From Daedaleopsis sinensis (Eukaryota; Basidiomycota; Agaricomycetes; Polyporales; Polyporaceae): 64,000 nt of DNA. How positions within the stretch are numbered: position 1 is the stretch's first letter; every line of letters begins with the position of its first letter. Below the pieces are notes generated by a model that was not told the origin of the DNA, did no database searches, and saw only the letters and a list, made by a program, of their open reading frames with translations. This document shows, piece by piece, positions 3,548 to 53,302 of this stretch. The position numbers and the translations under genes were made by a program. Location of the stretch: NCBI GenBank assembly GCA_033807695.1, contig CM066308.1, positions 2,046,001 through 2,110,000 on the forward strand, in the 5' to 3' direction.

Positions 3548-5925
3548 TCAAATGGACGCCCTCCCACGAGGTTCGTACGGCAGCAGCAGCGCAACGAGGC
3601 CCGCGACAACGAACAACGTTCCCGAGACATAGATCGGGACAGACGTCCGCAGGTCAGTGTACAGCGCGATGAGTGGCGCCTGTGCGTCACCATGTTAACC
3701 GGTGTGCATAGCTATAAGAATTTTGCGGGTCGACTGAGACTGCTCACCATAACGCTGAAGATGCGACTGGCGGCACCGAGGAGAGCGTTGCCCGTCCCCC
3801 TGTCCTTGGCGGGGAAGAGCTCGGGCGAGATCGCGTACAGGGTCCCGTACATGATGTTGTTCGTGAACGTGTAGCCGCAATTCCAGGCGAGGAGGGCGTT
3901 CGAGGTGCGTGCCGTCGTACTTGCGAGCAGCAGGACGCCGGTGAGTGCTGTGCGTACGACGTCATATATCGAGAAGCAACACAATACGGGATGCTGTCAG
4001 TGTCATTACAGGCAAAGTTGATGCATTCATTGCTAGGCACGTACCAGTCGAAACTGCCAGTGTGCCTTTCCTGCCGAGCCCGCGCTGTTCGACCATCCAT
4101 CCCGCGAGCAAGGATCCCGGTATGCCCATTGTGCTAAGGATGACTTGCTACGTGATAGGATCAATGTATGAATGTCTCTACGAGCATACTAAGAGTGGAC
4201 TTACGTTCCTGTAGGTGATGTAGAGCGACCCATCTCCGAAGTCTGCACCCCTTGTCTGCAAACTGTGAGAACAGCGAGCCTTGAGCTACATCACAACGCG
4301 GAGCTGCACTCAGTGCTCACAAGACGGTGACGAAGTTATTATACCTGCCGGCCAAAGTTTTCAATACGAAAAGCAGAAACTGGCCGCGCAGTGCAACTCA
4401 CAACGGGAAAGCCAGTTCGATCAAAGCTAACGCCATTTCAGTGTCAGCATGACACGACTGCGCAGTAACAAAGGAGAAACGGTACCCCAGACGGTCAGAA
4501 GCAAGCTCGTCGAGTACGCCATCTTCTTTGTCGCAAACAATGCCCTGAGGTGGCTTATGTTGACTTTCCGTAGCTTACGCATCGCGGCGGCCTTCACACC
4601 TGTAGGGGCGCCTTCGGATTGCGCCTTCGTATTCGTATGCTTCTCCTCGCCGCCGTAAGAGTGCACAACCGCCCGTTCCACCTCCTGCAGCATCTCGAGC
4701 GTCAGGCTCGACGTCCGCCCGTTGTACGCCGCCACCGCGCGGACGACCGCGACCGCCTCGCGGACGCGTCCGCGGCCGATAAGGTACGAGGGGGACTCGT
4801 GCAAGTGGAAGACGAAGAAGCGGAGGACGAAGAGGACGGTCATGAGCGCCCCAGACGTCCAGAGCACGTACCGCCAGCCCTGGTTAGACGCGCGCGGGCA
4901 GTCGTCCGCGGATGCGCAGGAGAAGTTCGCGATGAACGGCCACGCGATCTGCGCAGCACGGCGTTAGACGTCAGACGAAGAGTATATACGTTCGAGCCTG
5001 CTGCGAGCCTGCCGAGGACTAGTACTCACGAGGCTGGCGACGAGCTGCCCGACGGCCCACCAGATCGAGAGCACGGTGAGCAGCCACTGGTGTGTCGCAG
5101 GCACGAACTCTAGGAACACCGCGGAGTCGACGGGCAGGTTCCCGCCGACGCCGAGGTTCCACGCGGCGTTGAGCGCGCAGAGCGCGACCGCGTTCGGGGC
5201 GCCCCCCGCGGCGAGCGCGAAGATCGAGGTGATGCAGAGCGTGAGGTTGAAGGACCATCTGCGGGCTCGCGCTCAGCTGCTGCTCCCGCCCGTGACACAC
5301 TGCGACGCGAGTGATGCGCACCTTCTGCCCCAGATGTCAGAGCCCACACCCCAGAACAGCGCACCGACCATCAGGCCGATGCTCTGTGCCAGGACGAGGA
5401 AGGGGGACTTGAATCCTGCGAACTCGTTGACGACGGGGTTGATGATTAGCCCAGTCAGAGTCTGGACAGAGTGTTAACGCGTAATACTCTCCGTTTCGTC
5501 TGTCGCACTTGACTTACCGGCCAAGCATTGTCTCTGGTAGCAGTAGGTGGTGAGCACAGGATTCAATCGTACGTATACGACTGGGCGTTTACTCACGCGA
5601 ACCACCCAAACCCGGCAACAAAGAACAGGTGCCACTGCAGTGCGCATTATAATTCAGTGTCACTTCGTGCAAGTTCATGACGCCGTGATCGTGAGTGACA
5701 CACCTGATACCTGCCCATCCCGATCTCCTGGAAGGCGGCGTTCAGCAGCTTCGCCTTGGCATGGTACACAGGATCCACGGCGTCCTCCTCGCCCTCGAAA
5801 ACGTCGTGGACGGAGATCAGCCCCGCCGGGCCCTCGACGTCGCCCGCGGGGTCCTTGAGCGTCTCCATTTTCGTAGGTGCAGCGGCGTTTGGCGATGCAG
5901 TCATTCCGAGCGGCGCGTAGTCCAC
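3548..5925 (-). CDS. MFS transporter (SVOP/sugar-porter-like), copy 2
   Basis: Complete multi-exon gene. The ATG at 5925 opens a 74-codon first exon (5704-5925) ending in AAFQEIGMGRYQ, nearly the same as copy 1. Following exons read WHLFFVAGFGWFA, DNAWP, TLTGLIINPVVNEF, GVGSDIWGRR (loop 2-3 motif), GVGGNLPVDSAVFLEFVP, FFVFHLHESPSYLIGRG, a long charged central loop, then LFPAKDRGTGNALLGAASR and a last exon ending LLLPYEPRGRASI before the stop at 3548-3550. The ESP(S/K)YL-GRGR stretch after helix 6 and the PxxxRGTG motif in the second half are typical of SVOP-like and sugar porters. Expected in the plasma membrane or an organelle membrane. Substrate unknown. It stands head-to-tail with copy 1, so the pair arose by tandem duplication. 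Confidence 0.88.
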
Positions 5926-6850
5926 AGGTTATGGTTCGTATCGTCCGTGATGTTTCGCTGTAGGATGGTGAGTACTGAGTGTCAGCGGACTGGAGAATAG
6001 GGGGTGAGTTGAAGGATCGGGAAGTGGATAGGCGCAGTTAAATACCGCATGTACGTACGTCGCCGTTGGGCCACACGATTCGATAGAAGACGCGAGGCGA
6101 TAAGGAACGAGCAAAGAGGAACGCCCGTTTCGAGTAGAACGCAGGACGCTGTCAACTGCGCAAGAACTTCGATGCCTGACAGTCGTGGAGTTCGCAAGTC
6201 AGCTGCTGGGTCTCGTAAACGCTCTTTCTGCTTTTTACACTCACCCTCCTGGACCCTGGTGGATGTATGCGGAAGACAAACTGACGATATGATCTGGTGT
6301 ACCCGTATTTCTTGGCCGGGGGAACGGGATGGTAAGATCGCACTGAGACAAACATGAAGATTCACATGTGAATCCGGCCACAACAATTTGATTGCAACAC
6401 TCGCTGCAGCTACTGATGTATTAGATCTGTGATATGTTGGGCGGGTTAACAGACAAGTGTAGGAGGACACACTATTCACTTACCTGTGTTTGACAGCACC
6501 CCTAGGCCCTTGTAGGGTGAGGGGGGTTCTAGTTCACAATGTATGTCATTATCAGTACACCGATCTACAAGCTAGTGTGTCGAGGAACATAAATACAAAT
6601 AGCCAGTTGTACAACCCCGAGATCCCAGCACTACGCAGCGATACATACATAAGCCCAGCTAAGGGTGGTCGTCATCAGTCTAATCCGAAGTCCATGCGAG
6701 AGCACGCAACATAGTAGCGATAGATAGATGCAGGGAGAGATGAGGGATGAGATGAAGTCGTGAGAGGTCGTGAGCTTGAGTGTCGATGAACAATGCTTAA
6801 CAATGATAGGTATGCGATTGAAGTGAGAGCCGGATAAATGCGCCGGATGC
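5926..6850. other. Intergenic region upstream of transporter copy 2
   Basis: About 0.9 kb holding the promoter side of the transporter (start 5925) and the 3' end of the gene at 6851-7844. Both genes are on the minus strand. I see no supported gene in it. Confidence 0.5.
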
Positions 6851-12362: not shown

Positions 12363-12367
12363 TGGAT
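12363..12367. repeat. Target site duplication, left copy (TGGAT)
   Basis: TGGAT stands directly before the first base of the left LTR and is repeated directly after the right LTR at 17801-17805. Five bases is the usual duplication for copia elements. Confidence 0.95.
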
Positions 12368-12737
12368 TGTTATAGTACAGACCATGGACTATCCTTTCCT
12401 TACTATACGTTACGATAGTCCCCTTCTCTTTTCTTATGGTACATCGTACAGTACTTACTAGTTACGCTGACTAGACGCTCGTTACATAATCCGTAGACGC
12501 CGCTCTATCTTTTCATCGTTCGTCTCGCTACTCTTTCCTCAGCTGTTGTCTTCACGCACACAGACTGAGGTAAGATCCACGTTCCTTTATCATACGTTCA
12601 TGTTCATGTAACTAACAGTACCATGTAGACTCGTTCCTTCGTCTAGGTACAGTATTAATGAACTTAGCTGTTGTCTTCACGCACACAGACTGAGACTCGT
12701 TCCTTCGTCTAGCCCGCTGCCCGTTCAAACTACGACA
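12368..12737 (+). repeat. 5' LTR (370 bp)
   Basis: Direct repeat with 17431-17800, same length, two substitutions seen. It begins TGT and ends ACA. A pyrimidine-rich stretch at about 12510-12540 resembles fungal transcription start regions. It contains the internal duplication described for 12541-12712. Confidence 0.96.
12541..12712 (+). repeat. Intron-containing and intron-less tandem segment inside the LTR
   Basis: A 29-base block (12541-12569) and an 18-base block (12629-12646) are separated by 59 bases that look like a complete intron: GTAAGA donor, TAACTAAC branch site, TAG acceptor (12570-12628). After a 19-base spacer the same two blocks recur (12666-12694 and 12695-12712), joined exactly where the intron would be spliced out. 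The right LTR repeats this at 17604-17775. The 29- and 18-base blocks are identical between the two units by eye. Confidence 0.93.
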
Positions 12738-12751
12738 GGTTATGAGCCCTG
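12738..12751 (+). promoter_or_regulatory. Primer binding site, matching initiator tRNA-Met anticodon arm
   Basis: GGTTATGAGCCCTG begins at the base after the left LTR. It is the reverse complement of CAGGGCTCATAACC, the anticodon stem and loop (anticodon CAT) of fungal initiator tRNA-Met as known from yeast. Priming would then use a tRNA cut in the anticodon loop, as in Drosophila copia and yeast Ty5, and not the tRNA 3' end. Confidence 0.82.
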
Positions 12752-12825
12752 TTGGATCGCTCTAGACCAACAGGAAACCCCACATCTCTATCTCTGCGCT
12801 TCCACACAGCCAAATCCCACGTTCC

Positions 12826-15800
12826 TTGCTTCTTTCGAAAATCTTCCCAGCAATACATCACACCATGCCTTCTACGACAGATACCAGCGCCACGCCAGCC
12901 CAAGCGTCTGGCACAACTCAAACACCGTCGCTATCTGCAAGTTTGTCAGCTGCTGTATCAGGTGCGCTCACACCCTCGTCCACATTCCCCTCCGGCTCCA
13001 ATCGCCTCTACGACATCGCCGCCCTCAAAAATGATGCATCAAACTTCAAGACCTGGAAGTATCGATGCCAAAAGATCCTCGAGCTCCGCGAGCTCTGGGG
13101 TATCATCTCAGGCGCGGAACCGATGCCCGACGTGAAGGCCGATCCAGACGCCTACGCGGCCTGGAAAAGGCGTGATCAGCTCGCCCAGATGCAGATCACG
13201 CTCACGCTGGAGGACGTCCCGCTGGACGGCGTAGTTCACGAGCCCACCGCACGCAAGATCTGGCTCAAGCTCATGACGAGCTACGAGGGTACCGGCAAGC
13301 AGACGATCGCGTTCCTCATATGCGATCTCTTCCGAGGCACGCTCTCTGACGAGTCCGCCATCCGCCCTCAGCTCGACGAGATGGTCCACAAGCACCATCA
13401 ACTCGTTGGCTTCGGGATCCACCTCGATGAGGTCATCGTCGCCATCGCCATGGTCGTCTCCCTTCCCCCTTCGTACAAGACCCTCAGCACGATCCTCATG
13501 TCGTCACAAGCGTCGCTCACCCCGGAGCTCGTGATCGAGCAAGTCACCGAGCACGAGAAGCAGATGAAAGGCGATCAGCAGCTCAACGCTCTCGTCGCCC
13601 GCGCTCAGCACAAGGGGAGCTCGAACGGCAACTCGTTCAAGGGCAAGGACAAGAAGAGAGGCAAGCAGGACGACGACAAGCCGACCTGCGGCCACTGCAG
13701 GAAGAAAGGGCACGTCAAGGACGAGTGCCGGAAGCTCAAGTCCGAGCAAGCAGCCGCAGCCGCCAGAGCCGCAGCGAAGAAGGACGCGGCCCCCGCAGCT
13801 CAAGCTGATCTCACCGCGAAGGTCGCCGAAGTGCACGCCGCACCCATGGCTCACCCGAGCGACGAGGTCGTCCGCCTCTACGTTGCGAAGGCCCTCCGAT
13901 CGTCAGACCCGACCCGCTGGATCATAGACTCCGGCGCGTCCGCTCCGATGAGCTCGCACCGCGACTACTTCGACACGTACAAGGTGCTGCACGCCCCGGT
14001 CCGCGTCTGGATGGGTGACGAGCGGTTCATCCTCGCCATTGGCGTAGGCTCTGTCCGCCTCTCACTCAAGGACGACGAGCAATCCGAACCGCTCGAAGTC
14101 CTGGTCCCATTCGTCTACCACGTCCCCGACCTCAACGGAAACCTGCTCTCCGTCTCCGCACTCGTCTCGCGGGGATACGCAGTCAACTTCCTCCGCAACG
14201 GCTGCAGGATCGTCGCACCAGATGGCCAATCTGTCGGCACCGTCGTGCACAAGGACGGACTGTACGTCCTCCGCGGATCCGTCAACGCTCCCGTGTCCGC
14301 CTCGATCGCCACCCTCGACGTCGATGGATCCGAGGTCTCCGACCCCGGCCCGACTCCTGACATCTCCGCACTCGTGGCACGCGCTAGCGGCGAGTCTCGT
14401 GCGACCGTACAGACCTGGCACCGCCGTCTCGCTCACATCAGCCCGGACGCCGTGATCAAGATGGTCCGCAAGGGACTGGTCAAGGGCATGGCACTCATCG
14501 GCGCATCTAAGAAGCCCGATGGAGTCTGTTCTCCGTGTCTCGCTGGCAAGCAGACTCGGAACGTCATCCCGAAGACCACGTCCGCCGAGTACCCCCGTTC
14601 CAACTACCGCATCCACTCCGACCTCTCAGGCCCCGTCCAGGTATCGACCCCGTCCGGCGAGAACTACGCCGATGTGTACGTCGATGGTTACTCACACCAT
14701 CTGACGGTCCACCTGCTCAAGGCGAAGTCCGACCAGCCGTCTACCCTGGACGCGCACATCACCCACGTGGAGAACCTAGTGGGCGAACCGGTTGCGATCA
14801 TCCGATCGGACGGTGGAGGGGAGTACGTCAACAAGGACGTCGTCGCGATCTGCAACGCACGCGGGATCAAGCACGAGCTAACGAACCCGGACACTCCACA
14901 GGAGAACGGTCTCGCGGAGCGCGCCTGGCGCACGATCTTCGACAAGGTCCGCACGATGCTCGCGGAGAGTGGCCTACCGCCGACGTACTGGGGCGAGGCC
15001 GCCAAGTACGCGGTCCACATCCTCAACATGACGCCATCCAGCGCGCTCGGGGACGAGACCACTCCACAGGAAGCCTACACCGGTGTCAAACCCTCTGTCG
15101 CGCACATCCGACCGTTCGGCTGCAAGGCACACGTCCACGTTCCTGACAAGCAGCGCAAGAAGCTCGACGCGAAGTCGCTCGAGTGCGTGCTCCTCGGCTT
15201 CTCCGAGCGCAAGAAGGCCTACCGGCTCCTGCACCGCCCCACTGGACGCATTCTGGAGTCCCGCGACGTCGTCTTCGACGAAGGGGAGCCCGACTCGGTC
15301 CCGACCCGCGTAGTCGTCTCGACGGAGCCCGTCTTCCCGTCCGAGACCGCAGGCACCCCCGCAACGCGCATCCAGTTCGTCAGCGAGGAGGACATCCCCG
15401 ATGCCCCATCGCGCAGAGCGGCTCGACCCGCTCCCGCTGCCATCCCTGATCCTCTCCCTCAGGAGGAAGACGTTGCGGATGGCGCTGCCGCACAGCCGCG
15501 CTCCCGCTCTCCTTCCCCGCCTCCGCCTCGCGCTCCGTCCCCCGCTGCCGCTGGACCCGCTCGCGCTCGACGCAATGCGGCTCCGCGCATCCCTGCCCCC
15601 TACCACGTTCCACCGCCAGAGGAACGGCGCCGCTCCTCGCGCATGCGGACTCAGCCTCTCCGGCTCGGCGAGGACCCGATCTTCAAGGTCACGTCCTACG
15701 CGCGCCGTCCTCGTGCCGCTGGAGGGGAGGAACAGGTCGCACCGGCTCCACAGCCAGTGGGCGATGATGCCGCTGAAGCAGAGCAGGAGCACGCAAACGA

Positions 15801-17403
15801 AGTGGGCGCAGAGTTCGCGCACCGCGCGTCGACTCTCAGCGACGAACCGCAGTCGTACGAGGAAGCCGTGGCACGCCCCGACGCAGACATGTGGAAGGCC
15901 GCCATGGCACAGGAGATGCTCCAATTCGTCAACACGAACCTCTTCGACGAGGTTGAGCGTCCGCGCGGCCGCAAGGTCGTTGACTGCCGGTGGGTGTTCC
16001 GCATCAAGCGGGACGCCAACAGGAACGTCGACAAGTACAAGGCCCGTCTCGTGGCCAAGGGCTTCACGCAGATCGAAGGCATCGACTATACCGAGACGTT
16101 CGCGCCCGTCGCTAAGTACACCACCATCCGCACTCTTCTCTCACTCGCCGCAAAGCACGACTGGCACATCCATCAGCTCGACGTCAAGTCCGCGTTCCTC
16201 AACGGCGACCTCGACGAGGAAATCTTCATGGAGGCCCCCAAGGGCTTCCGTGAATCGACCAAGATCGTCTGGAAGCTACGCAAGGCGCTGTATGGATTGA
16301 AGCAAGCCGGCCGCGAGTGGTACAAGAAGGTCCGCGAGGTCTTCACGGACCTCGAGTTCACGCGCAGCAACGCCGACCACGCCCTCTTCTGGCGTCGCGT
16401 CGACGGTACGATCCTCATTGTGTCCGTCTACGTTGACGACATGCTCGTTTTCTCCCCTAGCAAGGCGCTCATGGACGACCTCGAGCGTACGATGGAGAAC
16501 AACTGGGACATCACCCGTCTCGGCGACGCTCACTTCATTCTAGGCATGGAGATCAAACGCGACCGCGCTCGAAGGATCCTCACTCTCAACCAACGCCGGT
16601 ACACGCTCGACATCCTCGAGAAGCACGGCATGGCGGACTGCCGCCCTGCGCCGACCCCCATGGTGCAAAACCTAAAACTCCCGAAGCTCGACACCGCCGA
16701 GGTTGACACCCAGAAGTACCAGAGCGCCCTTGGATCGCTCATGTACCTCATGCTGGGTACACGCCCGGACATCGCGTTCGCTGTCGGCGTACTCAGCCGC
16801 CATGCGAACTGTCCCGGCAAGGAACACTGGGACGCGCTCATGCGTGTCTTCCGCTACCTCCGTGGAACTGTCGACCGCGCGCTCGTATACGACGGAAACG
16901 CTGGCAAGACCGTCGGCGCCCTCCAAGGATACGTCGACGCGGACTGGGCCGCCGACATCAACGATCGCCGCTCCATCTCGGGATTCGTCTTCTTCGTCTC
17001 CAACGCCGCCGTCAGCTGGTCCTCGAAGAAGCAGTCGTCCTGCGCTCAGTCCAGCACTGAGGCAGAGTACATCGCGATGGCCTCATCCGCCAAGGAGGCC
17101 CTCTGGTTCCGCACATTGTTTGAGGAGCTGGAGGAGATCGCGACGGACTCGCCCGAGCAAGGCACGCTGCTCCTCGTCGACAACCAGTCGGCCATGGCTC
17201 TCGCGAAGAACGCCACTTTCCACGATCGGACGAAGCACATTGCCGTTCGTCATCATTTCATTCGAGATGAGATCGAGGATGGCAACCTCCGCGCGGAGTA
17301 CGTCCCCACCGACGACCAGATCGCGGACGTCCTCACCAAGGCCCTGGCCCGCGAGAAGTTTCACAACTTCTGTGTTGACCTCGGTCTAGTTGATTTGGAC
17401 TAG
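12826..17403 (+). CDS. Copia gag-pol polyprotein (1525 aa)
   Basis: One open frame. The ATG at 12826 is first; the ATG at 12865 (MPSTTDTSATPAQ) may be the true start because the text before it is poor. Order: gag with the LYDIAALKNDASNFKTWKYR opening typical of copia gag; CX2CX4HX4C zinc knuckle (CGHCRKKGHVKDEC) near residue 288; aspartic protease with IIDSGAS near 368; H-C zinc region before the integrase near 525-570; integrase core with D (HSDLSGP) near 598, D (RSDGGGEY) near 661 and E (QENGLAER) near 693; proline/serine/alanine-rich linker near 870-930; reverse transcriptase with WVFRIKRD, LDVKSAFLNGDL and YVDDMLV near 1204; RNase H with DADWA near 1371 and SSTEAEYIA. Gag and pol share one frame with no frameshift site. 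The protein is self-processed and makes particles in which the RNA is copied. Confidence 0.97.
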   Translation: MLLSKIFPAIHHTMPSTTDTSATPAQASGTTQTPSLSASLSAAVSGALTPSSTFPSGSNRLYDIAALKNDASNFKTWKYRCQKILELRELWGIISGAEPMPDVKADPDAYAAWKRRDQLAQMQITLTLEDVPLDGVVHEPTARKIWLKLMTSYEGTGKQTIAFLICDLFRGTLSDESAIRPQLDEMVHKHHQLVGFGIHLDEVIVAIAMVVSLPPSYKTLSTILMSSQASLTPELVIEQVTEHEKQMKGDQQLNALVARAQHKGSSNGNSFKGKDKKRGKQDDDKPTCGHCRKKGHVKDECRKLKSEQAAAAARAAAKKDAAPAAQADLTAKVAEVHAAPMAHPSDEVVRLYVAKALRSSDPTRWIIDSGASAPMSSHRDYFDTYKVLHAPVRVWMGDERFILAIGVGSVRLSLKDDEQSEPLEVLVPFVYHVPDLNGNLLSVSALVSRGYAVNFLRNGCRIVAPDGQSVGTVVHKDGLYVLRGSVNAPVSASIATLDVDGSEVSDPGPTPDISALVARASGESRATVQTWHRRLAHISPDAVIKMVRKGLVKGMALIGASKKPDGVCSPCLAGKQTRNVIPKTTSAEYPRSNYRIHSDLSGPVQVSTPSGENYADVYVDGYSHHLTVHLLKAKSDQPSTLDAHITHVENLVGEPVAIIRSDGGGEYVNKDVVAICNARGIKHELTNPDTPQENGLAERAWRTIFDKVRTMLAESGLPPTYWGEAAKYAVHILNMTPSSALGDETTPQEAYTGVKPSVAHIRPFGCKAHVHVPDKQRKKLDAKSLECVLLGFSERKKAYRLLHRPTGRILESRDVVFDEGEPDSVPTRVVVSTEPVFPSETAGTPATRIQFVSEEDIPDAPSRRAARPAPAAIPDPLPQEEDVADGAAAQPRSRSPSPPPPRAPSPAAAGPARARRNAAPRIPAPYHVPPPEERRRSSRMRTQPLRLGEDPIFKVTSYARRPRAAGGEEQVAPAPQPVGDDAAEAEQEHANEVGAEFAHRASTLSDEPQSYEEAVARPDADMWKAAMAQEMLQFVNTNLFDEVERPRGRKVVDCRWVFRIKRDANRNVDKYKARLVAKGFTQIEGIDYTETFAPVAKYTTIRTLLSLAAKHDWHIHQLDVKSAFLNGDLDEEIFMEAPKGFRESTKIVWKLRKALYGLKQAGREWYKKVREVFTDLEFTRSNADHALFWRRVDGTILIVSVYVDDMLVFSPSKALMDDLERTMENNWDITRLGDAHFILGMEIKRDRARRILTLNQRRYTLDILEKHGMADCRPAPTPMVQNLKLPKLDTAEVDTQKYQSALGSLMYLMLGTRPDIAFAVGVLSRHANCPGKEHWDALMRVFRYLRGTVDRALVYDGNAGKTVGALQGYVDADWAADINDRRSISGFVFFVSNAAVSWSSKKQSSCAQSSTEAEYIAMASSAKEALWFRTLFEELEEIATDSPEQGTLLLVDNQSAMALAKNATFHDRTKHIAVRHHFIRDEIEDGNLRAEYVPTDDQIADVLTKALAREKFHNFCVDLGLVDLD

Positions 17404-17430: not shown

Positions 17431-17800
17431 TGTTATAGTACAGACCATGGACTATCCTTTCCTTACTATACGTTACGATAGTCCCCTTCTCTTTTCTTAT
17501 GGTACATCGTACAGTACTTACTAGTTACGCTGACTAGACGCTCGTTACATAATCCGTAGACGCCGCTCTATCTTTTCATCGTTCGTCTCGCTACTCTTTC
17601 CTCAGCTGTTGTCTTCACGCACACAGACTGAGGTAAGATCCACGTTCCTTTATCATACGTTCATGTTCATGTAACTAACAGTACCATGTAGACTCGTTCC
17701 TTCGTCTAGGTACAGTATTAATGAACTCAGCTGTTGTCTTCACGCACACAGACTGAGACTCGTTCCTTCGTCTAGCCCGCTGCCCATTCAAACTACGACA
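17431..17800 (+). repeat. 3' LTR (370 bp)
   Basis: Copy of 12368-12737 with two differences by eye. Its last base A joins the following duplicated TG to form an ATG at 17800-17802 that is in frame with the host gene remnant. Confidence 0.96.
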
Positions 17801-17805
17801 TGGAT
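17801..17805. repeat. Target site duplication, right copy (TGGAT)
   Basis: Matches 12363-12367 exactly and joins the right LTR to the rest of the host gene. Confidence 0.95.
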
Positions 17806-48225: not shown

Positions 48226-48764
48226 GGCCTTGCAGATCTTGTTTCCATATTCGAAGTTGTGACGACAACATATGCATCTCACCCTCCCGAATGTAGCATA
48301 TATATGCCCGACAGGGCCACAAACACTGTATTGTAGTTCCTATCCACGCCCCCTACCAATGCAGTCAACGTTAATGCCCTTTAATGAGAAAAGTTGCAAC
48401 CCGAGACGACTCACGGTACACCAGTACTGCGCCATTATCATACTCGGGCTCTTCCGAGTCGTGAGCACTTTCAATATGAGTACTTCACTGGCGTGTTTGG
48501 GCTCTGTCACTAGAGCTATATAGGACGGACCTGGAACGGACAATGACCTTGTAGGTTGAGACTCAAAATACTCGACTCCGAGTCGTAGCCCTACCGTACG
48601 TTGCGGGTATAGACGACGAGGAGGACGGCGAACTCAAGGAATCGCCCACTAGACGACAGCACTCAAGCGCCTGTCACTGTAAGGAGCATGGCGCTTACAA
48701 GCCCAGGCAAACCCTTTCCGTATCCACCACCAGCCTCATTCGTCCCGCCGCTCCTACTACTAGC
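48226..48764. other. Intergenic region
   Basis: About 540 bases between two plus-strand genes. It holds the terminator of the first and the promoter of prp6. No other feature seen. Confidence 0.5.
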
Positions 48765-51700
48765 ATGGCGGCCAACGGCAACAAAGCCAACAAGCTGGCG
48801 TTCTTGTCTATGCCAGCGCCAGCATCTTATGTTGCTGGTCTTGGACGAGGGTACGCTCTTGTAGATCTCGCATATGTGCTAATTCTCATGAGGTTCCTCC
48901 AGTGCCTCCGGTTTCACCACACGTTCCGATATCGGTCCTGCTCGCGAAGGTCCATCCGCGGAGGCTGTCGCGTGAGTCCTTTCGCTTCCGGTGCTCGTGT
49001 ATTGTTGATTTATATATGACTGTAGAGAAGCACAAGCACGGCGAGGTGAAGAGGCAGATGTCGACCCCGAACAGTTCCAGGATCCGGACAATGAATATGG
49101 TCTCTTCGCGGGAACCACATACGAAGCGGATGACGAGGAAGCGGATAGGATATACGAGCTTGTGGACAAGAATATGGACGCGAGAAGGCGTGCTCGAAGG
49201 TGAGTTTGTACTCTCGTCGGTGTTTCAGGATGCATACCATGGGAGATCAGTGCGTCGTAATACTCCCCGACATATGCCGCCCACCAGAGACAGTGCATCT
49301 GCCGTCCCCCGTCAGCTGCATAACTTCCCTCTTCTCTGTATTCCATTCTTAAAACATGATGTGACTCATTGGTTATCCTCGTACAGGGAAGCGCGCGAGA
49401 ACGAAGAGCTGGCTAAACATCGCGCAGAGCGACCCAAGATTCAGCAGCAATTCGCGGATCTGAAGCGCGGCCTTTCTGTCGTCACGGATGAAGAATGGGA
49501 AAGCATTCCTGAGGTGGGCAATCTTACGAGGAAAAAGCGTAAAAGGGACGAGAGGTCATTCGTTGTATCCGACAGCGTCATTGTCGGAGACAGGGGTAGG
49601 ACCGAGTACGAGACCTCGTTGGATGCCCATCAACAAGCAGTACGTCCCCGTCCTAGTAAACGCTACTTCGCTTGCTTATCGTTCACTTATGCGCCCCAGA
49701 CTGGCGGACTTGAAACACCTGCGGATAATGGCACTCTTACGAACTTCACGGAAATGTCGCAAGCCCGTGACAAGATCCTCTCGCTTAAGCTTGACCAGGT
49801 CTCGGGCACTGCTACCTCTGGCTTGCAAACGTCTATCGATCCTAAAGGTTATCTTACTTCGCTCGATAGCGTTGTGATCAAGACCGATGCTGAGATTGGT
49901 GACATCAAGCGCGCCCGTATGCTGTTCGACTCTCTTGTGAAATCCAACCCCAAGCACGCTCCCGGATGGATCGCGGCCGCTCGTCTCGAAGAACATGCTG
50001 GACGTATGGTTGCTGCGCGGAAAGTCATCAAACAGGGTTGCGATCAATGTCAGAAGAACGAAGACGTTTGGTTGGAAGCGGCTCGTCTGCATGTGAGTGG
50101 TTCAAACTCGAAGTGAGACCGACCTACAGTGTTGGTTGATAATGTGTATCATAGAACAACGACGACGCAAAGGTCATTTTGGCCAGTGCCGTGCAGCACG
50201 TCGGACAAAGTGTCAAGATATGGATGGCAGCCGCAGATCTAGAACATGATGTCAAAGCGAAGAAACGTGTCCTCAGGAAAGGTACGATCCCCTAGTGTAA
50301 TGAAGAGGCGGCGGGCTCATTGCTCGATAGCACTTGAACATATTCCGAACTCCGTACGTCTCTGGAAAGAGACAGTCAATTTGGAGTCTTCCGCTGTTGA
50401 TGCGCGGATCTTACTCTCACGCGCGGTGGAAGTCATACCCCAATCCGTAGAGTTGTGGCTCGCGCTCGCTCGTCTTGAGACTCCGGACAAGGCCAAAGCT
50501 GTCCTCAACAAGGCTCGCAAGGCGATCCCGACCAGCCACGAAATCTGGATAGCAGCTGGTCGTCTCCTGGAACAGGAAGCATACGCTACAGAGAAGTCGG
50601 AAGAACAGCGCGACAAGGAACTTGCTGTTGTCGACAAGACCATCGAAGCTGGCGTGCGCGAGCTACGTCGCCATCAAGTCCTGCTGACTCGTGAGCAATG
50701 GCTGAAAGAGGCGGAACGGTGTGAGAATGAGGGAGCTATCCGGACATGCGAGGCGATCATCAAGGCCACTGTGGCAATGGATGTCGAGGAGGAGGATCGA
50801 CTGGACACGTGGACAGGCGACGCCGAAGCCGCAGAGGCCAAGGGCAACATCGGTGCTGCTCGTGCAATCTTAGCATACGCCCTCAAGGTGTTCCCCGACA
50901 AGAAGAGCTTGTGGCGGAAGGCTGCCGATCTGGAGAAAGCGCGTGGGACGAGGTACGTCTTCACCTTCGCGATAGTCACTGTGTCCGATCATAAATAGAT
51001 GCCTAACTATCTCTGGTACAGGGAATCGCTCAACGCTATCCTCGAGCGTGCTGTGCATCATTGTCCGCAGGCCGAGGTCCTGTGGCTGATGTGGGCGAAG
51101 GAGAAGTGGTTGGCCGGTGATGTACCGGCCGCTCGCGAGGTCCTGGAGCGTGCATTCGTCGCCAATTCGGAGAGCGAGCAGATCTGGTTGGCTGCCACCA
51201 AGCTCGAAGCTGAAAACGGCGAGCTCGGCGTTGCGCGAGAGCTACTCGTCCGTGCTCGGACCGTCGCTGACACTCAAAGGGTACGTGTATTTTGATAGGC
51301 TAACACCTGGGTTCTCATCATAATCCGAATTGCAGATTTGGATGAAGTCCGCAGTTTTCGAACGGCAGCAAGGACAGCTCTCTAACGCGCTGGAGACACT
51401 CACAGCTGCAATCAAGAAGTACCCGAAGTTCGCGAAGCTCTACATGATCCAAGGACAAATCCACGAGCAGCAAGGGGATCGTGCGGTCGCGCGTGCGTCC
51501 TACGCTGCTGGGATCAAGGCGTGTCCCAAGGATGTGAACCTCTGGATCTTGGCAAGTCGTCTCGAGGAAGCGGACAACAAGAGCATCAAGGCTCGGGCCC
51601 TATTAGACAAGGCGCGATTGGCGAACCCTAGAAGTGATGTCCTCTGGGCAGAAGCGGTCGGCGTCGAAGAACGCAGCGGAGGCGCTGCTCAGGCGAAGAC

Positions 51701-52269
51701 TGTGCTCGCACGAGGCAAGTATTCCAAATTATACGCCTATTCAATCGTGAAGTCAATGCTGATATCGCATCACGCAGGGTTGCAAGAGTGCCCGACGTCG
51801 GGGCTACTGTGGTCAATGTCCATTTGGATGGAGCCCCGTCCGACACGGAAGGCTCGGTCAGCCGACGCGCTCCACAAGGCGGGAAGCGACCCTTGGGTGC
51901 TCTGCAGCGTCGGACGGCTGCTCTGGGCAGAGCGCAAGATCGAGAAGGCGCGGGAGTGGTTCGAGCGCGCGGTGTCGGCGAGCGAGCAGCCCAGCGACAC
52001 CTGGGGTGACGTCTGGGCGTGGTGGCTCAAGTTCGAACGACAGCACGGGACGAAGGTGCGTGCGGTGATGGCCCGAGTTGGCGGTTGGCTGCATGTTACT
52101 GACAGATCGTCCGCTCTTTATTTAGGAGCAGCAAGAGCAAGTGATCAGCAGAGCCATCAGTGCAGAGCCTCGGTACGGACCGACGTGGCAGCGCATTGCG
52201 AAGGACATTGTGAACACGCGCAAGAGCTCCAGGGAGATAATCGAGCTCGTGGCCAATGCGCTGCACTGA
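48765..52269 (+). CDS. prp6: Pre-mRNA splicing factor Prp6 (U4/U6.U5 tri-snRNP)
   Basis: About ten exons, near 920 residues. The ATG at 48765: [20 protein letters not shown] then [20 protein letters not shown], the conserved PRP1 N-terminal domain of Prp6/Prp1. It continues with [20 protein letters not shown] and [20 protein letters not shown]. The rest is a long row of HAT/TPR-type helical repeats ([78 protein letters not shown]) to the stop at 52267-52269. Prp6 bridges the U5 and U4/U6 particles in the tri-snRNP in the nucleus and is essential for spliceosome assembly. All splice joins examined keep the frame. Single-copy housekeeping gene; nothing broken. Confidence 0.96.
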
Positions 52270-53302
52270 AGTGGGCGCTAGTGTGCGATGTGAGTGCTCC
52301 AGTGCTGCCGCGCAGGAGGATGGGATGCTACTCATGGGGAGATTCGGGCACTGCGGCGTGGGTGTGTACGATATATCATGGATGTCTAGTGATGCTGTGC
52401 TTGGTGATCAGATCACACGTTGTTGTGAACGCACTGACAGTTTTGTCAGTTTGGTGTCGTCGACCTACAGCCGTCCGAGTTCTATTGGCAGTTGCCCCAG
52501 ACGTGGGCGGGACGAGTTGCGATCAAGACGTCGATCAAGACGTCGAATAGGAATAATGCTCACCGTCCGAGAGTCGGTGGACGGTGGACCACCACTGACC
52601 ATGGTTATTTTTGACTTGTTAGATGGGCTCCCACCAAGCTGCGGTACCATCAACTCGTCTCGGAGGTTGCTATGATGATCTGTTTCGGCGTACGTGCGTT
52701 TGCGGTACGTTCCATCCCCCCGTTTGAGCAGGTCAATACCAAACCGACGTACGTTCGGACTGCGCACTTAGGATAAGTTAGGAACAGAGTATTACTCTCG
52801 TAAGGTAAGCTGGCGAACTGCGACTGTCGGTGTCGACTGTGCACATCCTGCGCGCTATAACTGCGTGTATATAAACAGCACTTATTCTAAGGACGTCCTT
52901 GAGTTGCTTGCGATTATTCTTGTATTGTTCGTGAGGACTTGGCTTGACAGAAAGAGCTTCTTATGATGCGATACCAGTGCATGCACGGCGAGCGTGTTGC
53001 GCGGGCCAATAGGACGGGGCGGAGGGCGTCTTCATCCAGGCGAGCGGGTCTGATAGACTGATAGAGAGCAACAGCCTGTCGTTACTGGCTGGTTGCCACC
53101 CCTTGTACCGTCCGCTCGGGCTGAGAACTACGGAGGAATACTTAAGTATACAACATGGCCGACGGTCTGGGTCTGTTCTGTGACCTTCCTGTCGCTCTCT
53201 GGTCGAAGGTAAGGCCACTGGTCTGGGATCGCCCTCTTCACGCTATCTGGTATACTTTTGTTTTCTTTCTTGCGCAGGTCGCCGCTATTTGTTACCTTCA
53301 CG
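52270..53302. other. Intergenic region with a 5'-UTR intron of the protease gene
   Basis: About 1 kb. GTAAGG at 53209 and TTGCGCAG ending at 53277 bound a 69-base intron in the leader of the protease gene, so the upstream ATG at 53258 lies inside an intron and is not the start. A 12-base direct repeat (GATCAAGACGTC) lies near 52521-52546. Confidence 0.55.

Follow-up and report, generated by a model that had tools for sequence, protein, structure and literature searches.

The window analysed here, a stretch of 64,000 nucleotides, contains a Copia LTR retrotransposon bordered on both sides by a 5-bp target duplication, TGGAT (12363-12367 and 17801-17805). Its open frame holds the domains Retrotran_gag_2, rve and RVT_2 in that order, i.e., the gag-INT-RT order of Copia elements. 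The features of the element, in window positions, are as follows.

12368-12737, forward strand: 5' LTR, 370 bp, TGTTAT...CGACA, pairs with the 3' LTR
12541-12569, forward strand: E1 of unit 1, 29 nt; probable transcription start at its left edge
12570-12628, forward strand: putative intron 1, 59 nt, GTAAGA...CTAAC...TAG; contains TAACTAAC
12629-12646, forward strand: E2 of unit 1, 18 nt
12647-12665, forward strand: spacer, 19 nt, begins with GT; its 3' end differs among copies
12647-12712, forward strand: putative intron 2, comprising the spacer and the whole of unit 2; donor GT after YAG
12666-12694, forward strand: E1 of unit 2 (the spliced copy), a repeat of E1 of unit 1
12695-12712, forward strand: E2 of unit 2, joined exactly to E1; its final TAG is the putative acceptor of intron 2
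12713-12737, forward strand: U5
12738-12755, forward strand: candidate primer binding site region, GGTTATGAGCCCTGTTGG, adjoining the 5' LTR
12865-17403, forward strand: gag-pol open frame (stop-to-stop 12766-17403, 1545 codons)
17431-17800, forward strand: 3' LTR, with the block plan and offsets of the 5' LTR
17604-17632, 17633-17691 and 17692-17709, forward strand: E1, intron and E2 of the 3' LTR
17710-17728 and 17729-17775, forward strand: spacer and unit 2 of the 3' LTR

An earlier note on this DNA had described, in both LTRs, a 29-base and an 18-base block (here E1 and E2) split by 59 bases and followed, 19 bases on, by a copy in which the two blocks are joined, and repeat comparison found this description to be exact. 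In the 3' LTR the repeat begins at 17601, which extends it leftwards by 3 bases. Two substitutions separate the LTRs, so the arrangement that they share represents one event, not two. For the primer binding site region we assume a tRNA of the half-tRNA type; GGTTATGAGCCCTG also lies directly 3' of the 5' LTRs of other families, and GGTTATGAGCCC follows the LTR in the window element and in other families. Within the 5' untranslated region, AATCCCACGTTCCTT (12814-12828) is similar to GATCCACGTTCCTT of intron 1, a likeness that may be due to chance.

The same note took the 59-base insert for an intron, and the sequence marks of one are indeed present, i.e., GT-AG limits, a branch motif and a length like that of host introns. 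The Prp6 gene of the same window served for comparison, translated in three frames and inspected by eye for introns; these have donors such as GTACGT and GTGAGT, YAG ends and lengths of ~48-72 nt, with one near 190 nt, and on these features the insert resembles them. The gene, which encodes a splicing factor, lies at 48700-52300 and has about ten introns, one of them apparently GC-AG (GAG|GCAAGT near 51715). An introner origin, for which the note had proposed a search, was rejected: a 61-base query covering the window intron (E up to 10) found no match at unrelated genomic sites, and its 8 matches are the 8 LTRs of the window family.

The window LTR, used as a query, returned 8 full LTR matches on contigs C9, C5, C2 and C4, together with a diverged LTR on C3 that matched in two pieces. 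All 8 full LTRs have the plan of an intron-bearing E1-E2 unit followed by its joined copy, and the C3 LTR has one intronless E1-E2 unit, then U5 and the primer site. The elements on C5 and C2 have 0 substitutions between their 5' and 3' LTRs, and these near-identical pairs, like that of the window with its 2 substitutions, indicate recent jumps. Elements at ~66-73% internal DNA identity have the same plan built from different E1 and E2 sequences. Furthermore, 11 Copia loci were added from the list of RVT_2 matches and inspected at their 3' ends, and the plan is present in nine of these (L053 and L056-L063). One of the other two, L054, has an ordinary LTR (C6:4027539-4027899, pair confirmed; reverse-transcriptase identity 46%), and its family offers a natural contrast by which to judge the role of the intron plan; for L055, no LTR was seen in the stretch taken. 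The plan thus occurs in ~14 Copia LTR families of this genome, as grouped by ourselves, down to 33% reverse-transcriptase identity. Identity to the window element is 62-64% in the nearest group, 46-47% in the L053 family, 41-45% in the other sampled loci with a full reverse-transcriptase match and 33% in L063. A search for relatives in viral contigs gave 53 pattern matches, of which none was confirmed. That the host is a fungus is suggested by the type of its introns and of its Copia elements, and by a TTAGGG repeat at the end of one contig.

Several of the loci surveyed have histories of their own. The 3' LTRs of L050 and L049 (G000:C4:3499279 and 3607082), 108 kb apart, share their downstream flank and are truncated at an identical place within the element (query base 4250), which points to a segmental duplication. 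At L035 (C9:12500-20500) the internal part is 93% like the window element; a window-family LTR was not detected beside it, and a different LTR with the plan lies at 6219 on the reverse strand. A decayed LTR with the plan is found at L043 (C6:3604500-3613500), where the donor GTAAG reads ATAAG.

Two of our three plan detectors require GT-AG of the insert. The third, a repeat search over the loci sampled, makes no demand on splice sites, and it returned 31 structures of an insert plus a joined copy. The insert is in GT-AG register in 30 of the 31, the exception being a repetitive stretch in L051, and since splice sites played no part in the search the limits of the insert are not a matter of chance. 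Related LTRs whose inserts ignore the GT-AG limits, one half of the case that the earlier note had set against its own reading, were not found among these matches.

The repeat resembles a splice junction at its right edge as well. Of the 30 GT-AG structures, 29 (all but L058) have AG|GT where E2 ends, and in each of 15 representative LTRs, L058 not being among them, E2 ends in YAG and the spacer starts with GT. A second intron is proposed because YAG|GT is conserved and because two units have to be kept. The branch motif CTRAY lies near the acceptor of intron 1 in 10 of the 15 representatives, and near that of the putative intron 2 in seven, against 2.5 expected in either case; it is absent near the latter acceptor in the other eight, the window's own family included, and the donors of the putative intron 2 are weak (GTACAG, GTATAT, GTTAGC). 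An alternative splice, joining unit 1 E1 to the 3' end of E1 in unit 2, was considered as well and rejected, as no more than 10 of the 15 representatives have an E1 that closes with AG, and the E2 blocks would be left unmatched.

The two units of an LTR were compared in 31 elements. Outside this count stand L043 (a decayed 3' LTR), the 3' LTR of L041, C3:6120-6295 and L066 (a single spliced unit each), L054, L055, the second LTRs of elements, the second C4 copy and those LTRs of the L053 family that were recognised by pattern alone. Block limits were set by hand for L052 (first LTR) and L063. As scored, the E1-E2 units are identical within the LTR in 24 of the 31 elements and differ by 1-3 in the other seven, giving 12 differences between unit 1 and unit 2 in total. 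The units of L063 are one base apart, and in L058, with a 4-base gap in E2, the comparison is limited to the shared 13 bases of that block. E1 and E2 vary between families yet match inside each LTR: the mean distance of unit 1 to its own unit 2 is 0.35 versus 19.4 to the unit 2 of other elements, and its own unit 2 is the nearest, ties allowed, in 28 of the 31 elements. Permutation within our groups set an observed value of 11 against a mean of 110 (p = 5e-5, the lowest value that 20,000 permutations can give).

Individual changes are likewise seen in both units. Every window-family LTR carries the same E2 variant twice, CCT on C9 and C5 or CCC on C2 and C4, and both units share a G to A change in L064/L065, a C to T change in L070 and an extra T in L068/L069. 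As the units change together across families, the spliced copy appears to have been re-made repeatedly. The earlier note had expected a rare, datable event, an expectation that does not survive a plan common to ~14 LTR families whose units change in concert. At L041, the 3' LTR alone has lost E2 of unit 1, and 2 of the 3 unit differences in the 5' LTR are CG to CA.

Variation is also concentrated at the spacer/E1 junction, a span of 5 columns that was picked after the alignment was seen: in the window family 3 of these 5 columns are variable versus 10 of 366 (p = 3e-4), and in the L038 group 3 of 5 versus 21 of 316 (p = 0.003), all three in the latter coming from one element.

LTRs of other forms, which the earlier note had suggested looking for, do exist, namely the single spliced unit of the C3 LTR and L066 and the ordinary LTR of L054. 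Pattern searches in the L053 family, which give lower bounds, placed the spliced unit at no fewer than 29 sites and the intron unit at no fewer than 24. Among the matches listed, 24 of 27 LTRs have the intron unit and the spliced unit, 120-122 nt apart; two, which belong to one C3 element (L064/L065), have two spliced units 66 nt apart; and one (L066) has a single spliced unit with a rearranged U3. In L064/L065 intron 1 has been lost exactly from both LTRs, and a base change unique among the matches listed is present in both units of both LTRs. An LTR with the intron unit alone was not met among the forms compared. Three-unit LTRs number none among the 31 with the plan, a weak zero given that these were chosen for having it, and none among seven further L053-family LTRs.

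The start of the RNA was approached through promoter motifs and folding. TATAWA occurs within 70 nt upstream of E1 in 4 of the 31 LTRs, in each of them with the first match 33-34 nt before E1, and it is absent from that interval in the other 27, the window's LTR included. A start at unit 2 was rejected, as it would not equalise the units and the four TATA matches point to unit 1. Together with a few bases before it, E1 folds as a hairpin in every one of the 8 LTRs examined by folding, which represent 8 of the ~14 families (z -2.1 to -5.2). The arms are CUCAG..CUGAG or CUCAC..GUGAG, with the putative first splice donor at the 3' base of the hairpin (window 12538-12569), and a compensatory G-C/C-G change is found between families. 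The left arm of the hairpin needs an RNA start ~3 bases before E1, and the hairpin might control the first donor.

Taken together, we think it likely, judging from the letters of these LTRs, that an RNA end spliced twice renews unit 2 as a landing site, and that the intron survives the jump in this way. Transcription would start close to unit 1 E1. The 5' end of the RNA would lose intron 1, which separates E1 and E2, and also intron 2, from the GT after E2 to the YAG closing the second E2; both removals are suggested by the junctions. The doubly spliced 5' end would then read E1-E2-U5-PBS, of which E1-E2-U5 is letter for letter unit 2 plus U5. In the 3' LTR the strong-stop cDNA could anneal to unit 2, the sole uninterrupted E1-E2 there, provided that this LTR stays unspliced; the model gives no reason for this contrast with the spliced 5' LTR. 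The new LTR would take U3-E1-intron-E2-spacer from the 3' LTR and E1-E2-U5 from the spliced RNA, so that unit 2 would be rewritten from unit 1 and the intron would thereby pass through an RNA intermediate.

The edges of the duplication would each acquire a meaning under such a cycle: the left edge as the RNA start, the two inner edges as those of intron 1, and the right edge as the donor and acceptor of intron 2. The variable spacer/E1 junction is where the end of the cDNA would lie. LTRs with two spliced units or a single unit are outcomes expected if the 3' LTR of the template is spliced once or twice, and a single-unit LTR could also arise by transfer to unit 1. Counting against the model are the weak donors of the putative intron 2 and the gaps in its branch motif, the lack of TATAWA in 27 of 31 LTRs, the unit differences in 7 of 31 elements, the right edge of L058, the existence of L054 without the design, and the zero count of three-unit LTRs, which are expected if intron 2 is sometimes kept.

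Unit 2 might instead come from spliced RNA by another route, which we regard as unlikely. In one form, the cDNA, on reaching the capped 5' end, passes straight to the 3' end of the RNA, with a poly(A) site in the spacer; this suits the variable bases at the spacer/E1 junction, and many spacers are TA-rich, as fungal poly(A) signals are. In the other, intron 2 is left unspliced and the extra units are lost by repeat slippage. Slippage does not explain why all 15 representatives have YAG|GT at the right edge, and no three-unit LTR was seen in the two sets counted. Gene conversion or recombination between the units at the DNA level, after a single insertion of the intron in an ancestor, has in its favour that conversion between repeats is common and that only a short distance separates the direct repeats, which are 29 and 18 bases long. 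However, conversion would be apt to copy the intron into the other unit or to eliminate it, would not hold YAG|GT in place at the right edge during a complete turnover of E2, and is difficult to reconcile with a change private to one element in both units of both LTRs (L064/L065); we judge it very improbable.

There is only a slim chance that a one-off event in the ancestor of the element, either a template switch fixed once or an intron gain, accounts for the LTRs with no continuing process, as this fits the window element taken alone but not units that change together across families. Of the two origins offered by the earlier note, the joining of unspliced and spliced RNA by reverse transcriptase stands in so far as the LTR does combine both forms, and fails as a single fixation given the plan in ~14 families; the other, a tandem repeat that gained an intron in one copy, accounts neither for the concerted change nor for YAG|GT at the right edge. 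That the insert is a mere spacer with chance GT-AG ends is barely credible in view of GT-AG at the exact edge in 30 of 31 structures, the branch motif in 10 of 15 representatives versus 2.5 expected, and the exact loss in L064/L065.

If renewal of unit 2 by a doubly spliced RNA end is correct, it would represent a novel way of achieving minus-strand transfer, with jumping coupled to the spliceosome. It would also provide a natural record from parent to offspring, testable from genomes alone, in which the positions where unit 1 and unit 2 disagree can reveal the parent LTR behind each part. We lean, by a narrow balance, towards a wider statement: a whole radiation of fungal Copia elements would replicate via an RNA that needs two splices at its 5' end, the landing site being spliced out of the RNA and restored with every jump, and the intron inherited although the genome is the spliced RNA. 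The E1 hairpin may time the splicing, and the LTR would be a one-generation record of the 5' end of its parent.

The earlier note knew of no described LTR of this design, and the titles and opening parts of abstracts searched in the open-licence literature mention no LTR that combines an intron with a spliced copy of its flanks, although this does not prove the design to be undescribed. The element is like Ty1/Copia elements in having gag, integrase and RVT_2 in one frame and in Copia order, a 5-bp duplication and TG...CA LTRs, whereas an ordinary Copia LTR, e.g., that of L054, has no intron with a spliced copy of its flanks. HTLV-1 and BLV have a splice donor in R and, as such, a splice site within the LTR; their spliced RNA is a messenger and not the genome, and we know of no spliced copy in their LTRs. 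The RNA of the plant LTR elements EVADE and Ogre is spliced too, but their introns lie in the internal region and the unspliced RNA is the genome, whereas the intron of the window element lies inside the LTR and the spliced RNA seems to be copied back. According to PMC12786077, the functional introns of EVADE and Ogre are a source of subgenomic RNAs, and retrotransposition normally removes introns, which is the basis of classic intron-marked reporter assays. Introns do survive retrotransposition in Penelope-like elements, which are not LTR elements; for these an antisense template is favoured, without an unspliced sense one being excluded (PMC3846280). Finally, strand transfer has been linked to splicing-type chemistry in Ty1, for which an RNA lariat with a 2'-5' branch between the RNA 5' end and the 3' R was proposed (PMC1266399); the LTR in that proposal has no intron, unlike the LTR of the window element.
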